DNA of 64,000 nucleotides from an uncultured Kushneria sp. (GTDB taxonomy: Bacteria; Pseudomonadota; Gammaproteobacteria; Pseudomonadales; Halomonadaceae). A program made the position numbers and the translations under genes. The notes under the pieces were generated by a model that ran no database searches, was not told the DNA's origin, and saw only the letters and a list, made by a program, of their open reading frames with translations. The DNA is taken from NCBI RefSeq assembly GCF_947497025.1, contig NZ_CANMFC010000003.1, forward strand, positions 372,001 to 436,000. Direction: 5' to 3'. Positions 56,989-59,479 of this stretch are shown piece by piece (the first letter of the stretch is position 1; every line of letters begins with the position of its first letter).

Positions 56989-57289
56989 ACGGCGTACTGC
57001 CTGCTTCAAGCAGGGCAATATTGTGAAGGGCTTCACCTCGCGTGTGGCCACAAAGCTCGCGGTCATAATCGAAGTCGTGACAAACCTTCGGGCGGCGTGG
57101 GTCCCCGAAAAGCCGGCAAAGATTGGCCTCATCAAGCTGGATACAGCGTGTGCCTGCCGGTTTTCCCTGCGGCATGCCGGGTATGGCAGAGCTGATGGAT
57201 GGCGCGATGCAGCAGGCACCGCAGCCCGGGCGACACCCGGTCTGCCGACTTGTCGCGATCACATCATGTTGTCCATCATCTAGGCTCAT
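56987..57289 (-). CDS. YkgJ-family cysteine-cluster protein
   Basis: A 100-residue protein with eight cysteines at 19, 23, 26, 27, 49, 58, 70 and 80 (CRPGCGACC, TRCIQLDEANLCRLF, KVCHDFDYDRELC). This is the UPF0153/YkgJ pattern thought to bind Zn or an Fe-S cluster; molecular function is not established. Its ATG overlaps the queD stop as ATGA, so it is translationally coupled as the last gene of a queC-queE-queD-ykgJ operon. That setting is the main clue to a role near 7-deazaguanine or metal-cluster chemistry. Confidence 0.82.
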   Translation of the reverse strand: MSLDDGQHDVIATSRQTGCRPGCGACCIAPSISSAIPGMPQGKPAGTRCIQLDEANLCRLFGDPRRPKVCHDFDYDRELCGHTRGEALHNIALLEAGSTP

Positions 57290-58134
57290 GCCGAATTCCG
57301 AGCGCCATGCGCGGTTGCCACGGCCCCCTTATCGATTCCCTCAAACGCCTGCACCCGGACACTGCCCCCATGTAGTGAAGCGATCTCCTTTGCCATCCAG
57401 TGGGCGATCTGTTCGACCGTGGTGGGCGTCGGCAGAATTTCGGCGTGTTCCTGTGGCAGGCGTATTGAAAAACGCCCCTGTGCCGAGTCATATCCGACAT
57501 GATACATATCGTTGTCTGTATCAATCAGATCGGCCTGATCAATCAGATAAATATCTTCAAGGCGCTTTGACCACTGTATTTCAAGCGCTTCGCTGCGCTG
57601 CCCGTTATGCCATATGGCCAGACGGGAGCGATGACCATGCGCAATGCGCTGGCAGTTGCCCTTGTGACGTCGAAGGCCGTGACTGTACGTGTAGCCGCCG
57701 GCCTCATGGGGCTCTTCACGCAGGGTCACGCGTATTTTTTCGACCTGCGCTGGCGGGCGTCGGGAAAGCTCCGCGGAAAGATAGTCCCCCAGTCGTTCGG
57801 GGGTGATCTGCTGCCAGGGCAGCAGGGTATAGGCCTGGCGGGGCGCTCGTAGCTCCATGGGCCACGGATGACGGGTCTGCAGGCGAAGCCCATCATTGCA
57901 CTCACCGACCGTAATATCGTGTGCTTTGGTAGGCACCAGCAGAGTATGGTCCACGGTGCTGTCGATACGTGACTTGATCCAGGGTTTGACATCCCCGAAA
58001 TCAAACAGCATGCCGTCTTCACCCAGCGGCCCTTCCAGCTCAACATCGATATGGTAGCTGGCGCCGACCAGGCCCCGTTGTGGACACCAGAGGGACACAT
58101 CGAGTGCGCCAAGAGCATTTACGAAAAGAATCAT
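57286..58134 (-). CDS. queD: 6-carboxytetrahydropterin synthase, two fused QueD-like halves
   Basis: At 282 residues this is more than twice E. coli QueD (120). Both halves look QueD-like. The N-half has lost the zinc HGH (reads GASYH near 24-28) but keeps Asp62-His63 (STVDHTLL) and Glu140 (LREEPHEAGGYTY). The C-half keeps His152, Cys161 and HGH at 166-168 (CQRIAHGHRSRL) and Glu265 (QAFEG) but lacks a clear Asp-His. In QueD these groups act together at the turnover of dihydroneopterin triphosphate to 6-carboxy-THP. Position between queE and ykgJ, with one-base overlap to queE, supports the role. Confidence 0.82.
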   Translation of the reverse strand: MILFVNALGALDVSLWCPQRGLVGASYHIDVELEGPLGEDGMLFDFGDVKPWIKSRIDSTVDHTLLVPTKAHDITVGECNDGLRLQTRHPWPMELRAPRQAYTLLPWQQITPERLGDYLSAELSRRPPAQVEKIRVTLREEPHEAGGYTYSHGLRRHKGNCQRIAHGHRSRLAIWHNGQRSEALEIQWSKRLEDIYLIDQADLIDTDNDMYHVGYDSAQGRFSIRLPQEHAEILPTPTTVEQIAHWMAKEIASLHGGSVRVQAFEGIDKGAVATAHGARNSA

Positions 58135-58778
58135 CAATCGATACCTGCAATCTTGTGGGTCTGCAGGGAGAGGCGCCACTGCGGGTTCGCCATGCAGTAG
58201 GCCACTGTGTCGGCCATGGTGTTGCCTGTCTCACCGCGAGGGGCAAGGTCCATGGGCTGCAGAAAGAAGTGGTCAAACTCGAGCGCCATGAAACGCTCGG
58301 GTAAAGCGTCTTCCTGCGGATAAACCAGCTTGAGCTCATTGCCGGCCAGCTGCTTGAGTTCGGCACGCCCCTTGGGACTGACGCAGAGCCAGTCGATACC
58401 TTCCGGTGCCGGGAGCGTGCCATTGGTTTCAACCGCGATTTCAAAACCACACTCGTGGATGGTCTCAATCAGGGCACTGTCCAGCTGAAGCAGGGGCTCT
58501 CCGCCGGTAAAGACCACGTAGGGCCGCGCGTGATCGGCATGCTGAGGCCACAGGGCCGCAATATGGTCTGCCAGTTCAGCGGCTGTTCGAAAGCGACCGC
58601 CGTTCTGGCCATCGGTGCCGATAAAATCGGTATCACAAAAGCGGCAGATACTGCTGGCGCGGTCCTTCTCGCGTCCGGACCAGAGGTTGCAGCCGGTGAA
58701 GCGACAGAACACCGAAGCACGTCCGGCCTGACCGCCTTCACCCTGCAGGGTGTAAAACGCTTCCTTGACGCTGTACAT
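58134..58778 (-). CDS. queE: 7-carboxy-7-deazaguanine synthase (radical SAM)
   Basis: A 214-residue radical SAM enzyme converting 6-carboxytetrahydropterin to CDG for queuosine. Cluster cysteines are C30, C45 and C48, a CX14CX2C motif, the divergent spacing known for Burkholderia QueE rather than CX3CX2C. GEPLLQLD is the SAM-binding GGE-type motif (VVFTGGEPLLQ) and YSVKEAFYTLQGEGGQAGR the substrate end. Its stop shares one base with the queD ATG, and queC ends two bases before its start. Confidence 0.95.
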   Translation of the reverse strand: MYSVKEAFYTLQGEGGQAGRASVFCRFTGCNLWSGREKDRASSICRFCDTDFIGTDGQNGGRFRTAAELADHIAALWPQHADHARPYVVFTGGEPLLQLDSALIETIHECGFEIAVETNGTLPAPEGIDWLCVSPKGRAELKQLAGNELKLVYPQEDALPERFMALEFDHFFLQPMDLAPRGETGNTMADTVAYCMANPQWRLSLQTHKIAGID

Positions 58779-58780
58779 GG

Positions 58781-59479
58781 CTACACCTCCCGCGTGTGGC
58801 TGGTCTGTCTGCGATAGGGCAGCGGGTCTTTAATGCCTTGTGATGCAAAGGCCTGAAGACGCTCGCGACAGCTGCCACATTCGCCACAGGCAAGCGCTTC
58901 ACCCAGATAGCAGGTCCATGTGTGGGCGTAATCCAGACCCATCTGCAGACCTTCAGCAAGGATGTCGTCCTTGCTGGCATGCAGATAAGGGGCTCGTATT
59001 TCCACGGGCGTATAGTTGGCAATCGCGGCAACATCGTTCATGCGCGCGACAAACTCGGGGCGGCAGTCAGGGTAGATGGCGTGATCGCCGCCGTGGGCCC
59101 CGTAATAGCAGATCTCTGCTTCCAGATTGACGGCGTGACCGATGGCCAGCGACAGCAGGATCATGTTGCGGTTGGGAACGACGGTCGCCTTCATGTTGTC
59201 TTCGGCGTAGTCGGCGCGTGGCATGGGCTGGCCGGCATCGGTCAGGGCCGAAGCACCGATAAGTCCATGAATGGCGCGTATATCCACGACCTGATGAGCC
59301 ACGCCCAGGGTCTGGCAGACCTGACTTGCAACATCGAGTTCGCGCGCGTGGCGCTGGCCATAATGGAAAGAGAGGGCGTGAACTTCATACCCCTCGCGCA
59401 GTGCGCGATGCAAAACGGTGTAGGAGTCCATGCCGCCGGAATAGATAACGACGGCGCGTGATGCGTTCTGTAATGTCAT
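58781..59479 (-). CDS. queC: 7-cyano-7-deazaguanine synthase
   Basis: A 232-residue ATP-dependent enzyme that turns CDG into preQ0. The PP-loop [14 protein letters not shown] is at 11-24, with [13 protein letters not shown] and [14 protein letters not shown]; a C-terminal zinc site [10 protein letters not shown] plus the Cys of TWTCYLGEA binds metal. It heads the que operon. Its 5' leader has a small GC dyad (59511-59517 with 59526-59532); no preQ1 riboswitch is seen. Confidence 0.96.

Follow-up and report, generated by a model that had tools for sequence, protein, structure and literature searches.

The 282-residue protein encoded downstream of queC and queE in the 64,000-nucleotide stretch of DNA that we analysed (the window) probably serves these cells as their QueD, and, going by sequence, we consider it likely that its active site is divided between two fused halves. 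Two QueD/PTPS subunits would have become one chain in which each half has lost residues supplied by the other, leaving one type of live site per chain rather than two. This long form would convert 7,8-dihydroneopterin triphosphate to 6-carboxytetrahydropterin for preQ0/queuosine, the QueD reaction being the one that we infer for it from residues and gene context. The observation of complementary losses made in the initial annotation was confirmed, and its interpretation as a divided site is supported.

The gene ends a queC-queE-queD row on the minus strand (Table 1), the names queC and queE being those that we presume from the two upstream sequences. In the minus-strand frame its ATG overlaps the queE stop by a single base, the A of the former being the final base of the latter; the list of open reading frames also holds a longer, GTG-started alternative that reaches 58179. 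PTPS (PF01242) was the sole Pfam family above cut-off, in two stretches, and each half scanned separately (N half, residues 1-144, 35.9 bits; C half, residues 143-282, 34.2 bits) exceeded the cut-off of 22.4 bits on its own, so the tandem-domain reading is not a product of chance and the proposal of two fused QueD-like halves stands. The NCBIfam QueD equivalog (TIGR03367) matched at 52.4 bits, below its cut-off of 89.25. PF14489/QueF was not among the families matched by the protein at E values up to 1, and the QueF of the same genome maps to another place. Among the best 80 of 162 relatives, the nearest with names are four Kushneria species with 89-94% identity to the long QueD, and a fifth, K. 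aurantia, has 69%, which places the window in Halomonadaceae.

Table 1. Positions of the long QueD, its neighbours and its conserved residues in the window, and of the three-domain QueDs in their own loci. Counts are homologues with the residue in the long-form alignment; Ec, E. coli QueD.
Feature	Position	Strand	Remarks
Bimodular QueD	57286..58134	(-)	282 aa; ATG start 58134; downstream of queC and queE
queE (7-carboxy-7-deazaguanine synthase), presumed	58134..58778	(-)	Named from sequence
queC, presumed	58781..59479	(-)	Named from sequence; upstream of queE
N-terminal T-fold half, putative 'relay donor'	57703..58134	(-)	Residues 1-144; PF01242 35.9 bits, E 8.6e-9
C-terminal T-fold half, putative 'zinc/Cys donor'	57286..57708	(-)	Residues 143-282 and stop; PF01242 34.2 bits, E 2.9e-8
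Asp45, N half (= Ec Asp54)	58000..58002	(-)	120/120
Asp62-His63, N half (= Ec Asp70-His71)	57946..57951	(-)	120/120 each
Strand 147-154, carries His152	57673..57696	(-)	Predicted from model secondary structure
His152, first zinc ligand, C half (= Ec His16)	57679..57681	(-)	120/120
Cys161, catalytic Cys (= Ec Cys27)	57652..57654	(-)	120/120; motif CxxxxHGH
His166-Gly-His168, zinc ligands (= Ec His31, His33)	57631..57639	(-)	120/120
Thr239-x-Glu241, probable pterin anchor (= Ec Thr84-x-Glu86)	57412..57420	(-)	120/120
Glu265, C half (= Ec Glu110)	57340..57342	(-)	120/120
Three-domain QueDs	L182:1091-2158, L183:2066-3133, L184:2542-3615, L185:2334-3398; also L190-L207		Aligned, n = 22

Genome content is consistent with this role. 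The genome has FolE, QueF and TGT, and its QueC (PF06508) matches reach a best E of 4.0e-66. Its only other PTPS place (C3:98910-99290; L001:1492-1890) encodes a short PTPS that lacks Cys and has HGA in place of HGH and Asp-Glu in place of Asp-His, and lies between what we take to be glycosyltransferase-like and alcohol-dehydrogenase-like genes. Across 194 genomes of the order, 81 had the long form only, 70 canonical QueD only (by our threshold of PF01242 E < 1e-33), four had both (G011, G017, G053 and G087) and 39 had neither; the resulting exclusivity (Fisher p 4e-19) takes no account of kinship and is inflated by shared ancestry. The long set includes one genome with the N half only (G013) and one in which the match ends at the contig end (G116), and the 39 include the four genomes with three-domain QueDs described below. 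Strong QueC matches were found in 79 of the 81 long-only genomes.

In 79 of the 80 near loci, these being the best 80 of the 162 relatives, a relative of queE lay no more than 1 kb upstream of the long gene and in the same orientation. In stretches of about 1.5 kb on either side it lay beside the long gene in one of 40 distant loci, that of G103, a genome outside the family with a queC-queE-queD row. Full-length long forms occurred in 20 of the 369 genomes of a class sample, with a split gene in one more, and in 43 of the 398 genomes of a phylum sample, all of the window's class; the phylum sample also gave one short, weak match outside that class (G586). In the split case (G510:C1:1281958-1282823; L135 and L144) the two-domain gene is read as two frames covering profile positions 3-208 and 202-276, which may reflect a natural split, a frameshift or an assembly error. 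Separately, a scan of viral contigs with patterns taken from the N half only found one contig (L214:1011-1718) with a weak relative of the long form (27% identity, residues 24-278).

The division of residues was read from an alignment of 120 long forms, comprising the window protein, 79 of 80 near loci (from which L074 was dropped for its irregular start) and 40 of 46 further loci, these distant loci being part of all matches (L135 and L144, the one split gene, and L145-L148, from the window's family, were dropped). Equivalences were assigned by profile alignment with E. coli QueD, taken from the MG1655 record and aligned with 30 canonical QueDs. The profile alignment of the C half with canonical QueD is weak (2% global, 46% local), and we accept the C-half equivalences despite this score because motif order and fold support them.

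As initially proposed, the N half holds Asp62-His63 and the C half holds Cys161 and the HGH of residues 166-168, all of them correctly placed and invariant, while a His at N-half position 23 or 25, the equivalents of the HGH pair, occurs in none of the 120 homologues. Glu140, which had also been credited to the N half, is present in the window protein but is not conserved (Glu in 53/120); its neighbour Glu141 is Glu in 116/120. The original list was moreover incomplete, since the N half also keeps Asp45 and the C half His152, Thr239, Glu241 and Glu265, in 120/120 each. Thr239-x-Glu241 is presumably the pterin anchor; in the N half, position 113 corresponds to Glu241 and is Glu in 80/120. In the window protein the full set of three zinc His, Cys, Asp-His and Glu is obtained only from both halves jointly, and none of the 120 homologues has full sets in both.

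Structure prediction agrees that both halves are QueD-like, and neither Pfam nor the two models gave a fold in which only one half is. The full-length model (mean pLDDT 91.7, pTM 0.88) has, for the N half, strands at residues 2-17 and 21-34, helices at 46-58 and 112-124, and strands at 133-140 and 147-154. Its residues 1-142 matched PTPS structures (Z 10.0, rmsd 2.9, 139 aligned) and E. coli QueD (Z 7.6-7.7), and in a Foldseek search of the full model single-domain PTPS/QueD entries came top, the rows below being chance-like. In the structure match list of the full model the C half was covered only by unrelated, low-Z rows, and it was therefore modelled separately. This C-half model (51 sequences; pLDDT 85.0, pTM 0.80, residues 18-20 below 50) matched PTPS 3lze (Z 13.0, rmsd 2.9, 130 aligned), E. 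coli QueD 4ntm (Z 8.9, rmsd 2.6, 93 aligned) and QueD2 7v0f (Z 8.7). In the models a group of short strands separates the two helices of each half. The predicted strand 147-154 seems to belong to both folds, closing the N half as its strand 4 and opening the C half as its strand 1, and the full-length model has seven core strands, not eight.

In ordinary QueD/PTPS, a homohexamer, the Cys and the zinc ligands come from one subunit and the Asp-His from a neighbour, Glu107 anchors the pterin in the rat enzyme, and the title of a 1995 paper by Burgisser reportedly names an 'intersubunit catalytic triad motif'. These subunit roles cast the C half as the 'zinc/Cys' subunit and the N half as the 'relay' subunit: the former would bring zinc (His152, His166 and His168), Cys161, Thr239-x-Glu241 and Glu265, and the latter Asp45 and Asp62-His63, which would polarise the Cys. 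We infer a single site at which the two sets come together. Conservation supports a count of one working set per chain, as the initial annotation held, yet this count does not imply that the site lies inside one chain. PTPS has been described as a hexamer, a dimer of trimers, with sites between three adjacent monomers (PMC7546909).

An unexpected second group of fused QueDs bears on where the two sets would meet. Neighbouring PTPS matches in one frame were found in four genomes of one genus in the survey of the order, in frames of 355-358 amino acids with three PTPS domains (three Pfam stretches in the one protein scanned); in all four loci (L182-L185) a queC-like motif precedes and queE follows the gene. 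A profile of these four gave matches over most or all of its length in 18 of the 369 class-sample genomes and in four of the six genomes of the family of the first four. Motifs of queE were present in the stretch examined at 10 of the 18 class-sample loci, at one of them before the gene, and at 14 of 22 overall. Eight relatives of the three-domain query, with 31-37% identity, occur on viral contigs.

Among the 22 aligned three-domain proteins, domain 2 has His125, Cys136, His140, His142, Thr192, Glu194 and Glu218 in 22/22 each and shares 52% identity with canonical QueD by profile alignment; it is not stripped of the relay, with His at the place of His71 in 13/22. Domain 3 has Asp279, Asp295 and His296 in 22/22 each, its first zinc His is gone (Leu, Val or Thr) and the alignment shows no Cys opposite Cys27. 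Domain 1 keeps the HGH His pair in 22/22, has lost the Cys and has Tyr at the His71 place in 19/22. The relay domain thus follows the zinc/Cys domain in the three-domain QueDs, whereas it precedes it in the two-domain form.

If chain order is ring order, a relay that follows the zinc/Cys domain means that domain i+1 provides the relay for the site of domain i. Applied to chains of the order N-C, this rule makes the interface between a C half and the N half of the next chain the live one and the interface within the chain a dead one, which would account for the particular residues that each half was free to lose. The domain order of the three-domain QueDs thus suggests that the two-domain site is completed between chains, and on this reasoning the zinc/Cys set of a C half would meet the relay of the next chain's N half rather than that of its own. 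A composite site inside one chain is possible, although we would adopt it with some reluctance. It has a precedent in bimodular QueF, where the separated elements come together between the domains of one subunit (PMC5372742), and the relative placement of the halves in the full-length model is confident (pTM 0.88). The position of the relay after the zinc/Cys domain in three-domain QueDs speaks against it, on the same assumption about chain and ring order, and a simple within-chain site leaves the opposite domain orders of the two forms unexplained.

The initial annotation also envisaged duplication followed by division of labour. The split is supported; that the long form instead arose by fusion of two already diverged paralogues is a reading that we regard as open to some doubt but not implausible. 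Short insertion-bearing ExxHGH PTPS are the closest of the compared groups to the N half (hhalign 98.5%, E 3.3e-15), ahead of canonical QueD (93.7%). The C half is much further from the ExxHGH family (44%), as paralogue fusion would have it. Against this, the halves detect each other (local hhalign 90%, E 1.5e-6) and share the short-strand set between their two helices. The short insertion-bearing PTPS of 18 genomes of the order (L223-L240) were considered as single-domain ancestors and rejected: they proved to be proteins with ExxHGH and with Asp-Glu at the Asp-His site, and the Cys-requiring pattern had no match among them.

Since domain 2 of the three-domain QueDs resembles canonical QueD and the N half of the long form resembles ExxHGH PTPS, the split probably arose twice, and the two- and three-domain fusions, on these sequence affinities, probably have separate origins and reached the same partition. 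More tentatively, QueD may have passed at least twice independently from a homohexamer to fused pseudo-oligomers with a divided site. The two-domain form would then have a shared strand, seven core strands, a between-chain site and a ring unlike the PTPS trimer, and the three-domain form would hold the whole trimer ring within a single chain, with one live site and two retired.

It is unlikely, in our estimation, that the C half is a complete catalyst in which Asp194 or another residue stands in for Asp-His, while the N half acts as a structural or regulatory partner and keeps its Asp-His for some other reason. The initial statement that the C half lacks the Asp-His holds for the window protein and most homologues, but not for L054 and L056 (2/120), whose C halves have their own Asp-His at positions 193-194 and thus every catalytic residue; L070 has Ala-His there. 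The matching of positions 193 and 194 to Asp70 and His71 of E. coli QueD is our own interpretation of where the first helix ends, a region in which profile and model disagree. On that reading position 193 is mixed among the 120 and position 194 is Asp in 90, Asn in 18 and His in three. The frequent Asp, together with L054 and L056, would suit a self-sufficient C half; yet 30 of the 120 do not have Asp at 194, while all have Asp62-His63, and three-domain QueDs keep the relay in 22/22 on a domain without the first zinc His and the Cys.

The published signatures of COG0720 are CxxxHGH for QueD, CxxxxxHGH for PTPS-II and ExxHGH for PTPS-III (PMC5041015). The long form matches none of them: four residues separate Cys161 from His166 in 120/120 (residues 161-168, 57631-57654), one more than in QueD and one fewer than in PTPS-II, and position 163, three before His166, is Arg, not Glu, in 119/120. 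We therefore file it as working like QueD, not as a signature-true member of PTPS-I. That it is instead a PTPS-III/VI-like folate enzyme or has some other COG0720 activity, as the N half's affinity to ExxHGH PTPS among the groups compared, the missed equivalog cut-off and the single queE-adjacent gene among 40 distant loci might suggest, is very improbable in view of the invariant Cys161, the Arg at the ExxHGH site, the queC-queE row and the near-exclusivity with canonical QueD while QueC is present.

Should the divided site be borne out, the long form would constitute a natural experiment on the passage of a symmetric enzyme to an asymmetric one. From the order of the domains one can also derive a rule, open to testing, about the neighbour that provides the relay in a QueD/PTPS ring. 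For annotation, the long form falls below the NCBI QueD cut-off and yet is likely to be the QueD of many genomes of the order. Among the matches listed in a literature search, mostly outside subscription journals, no title dealt with a two- or three-domain QueD; the InterPro family is credited with 18 domain architectures (PMC5445326).

Like E. coli QueD/PTPS-I (4ntk/4ntm), the long form has the PF01242 T-fold, holds zinc His, Cys, Asp-His and Glu in its chain and, in near relatives, has queC/queE neighbours; unlike it, the long form has two domains per chain between which these residues are divided, CxxxxHGH in place of CxxxHGH and inserted strands between the helices. Plasmodium PTPS of the PTPS-III type (3lze, 2a0s, 1y13) is the best structural match of both halves and can be aligned with the N half across the insertion, but it is a single-domain protein of the folate pathway with a catalytic Glu (E37 in structure titles). 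QueD2 of Acinetobacter baumannii (7v0f) is a PTPS paralogue that resembles the C half (Z 8.7) and differs in its chain of 169-182 residues; Zur is predicted to control queD2 genes (PMC9508795). As in the long form, the fused QueD domains of the three-domain proteins have lost complementary residues; the differences are the number of domains, three, a near-canonical domain 2 and the relay after the Cys domain. The nearest parallel is bimodular QueF of Vibrio cholerae and E. coli, in which active-site elements are described as separated between tandem domains (PMC5372742). It belongs to the same pathway and to the T-fold superfamily and likewise has a divided tandem-domain site, although its reaction and family are different and its site is described inside the subunit. 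If our reading is right, QueF and QueD would have made the same move within one pathway and fold, QueD twice and with different copy numbers.
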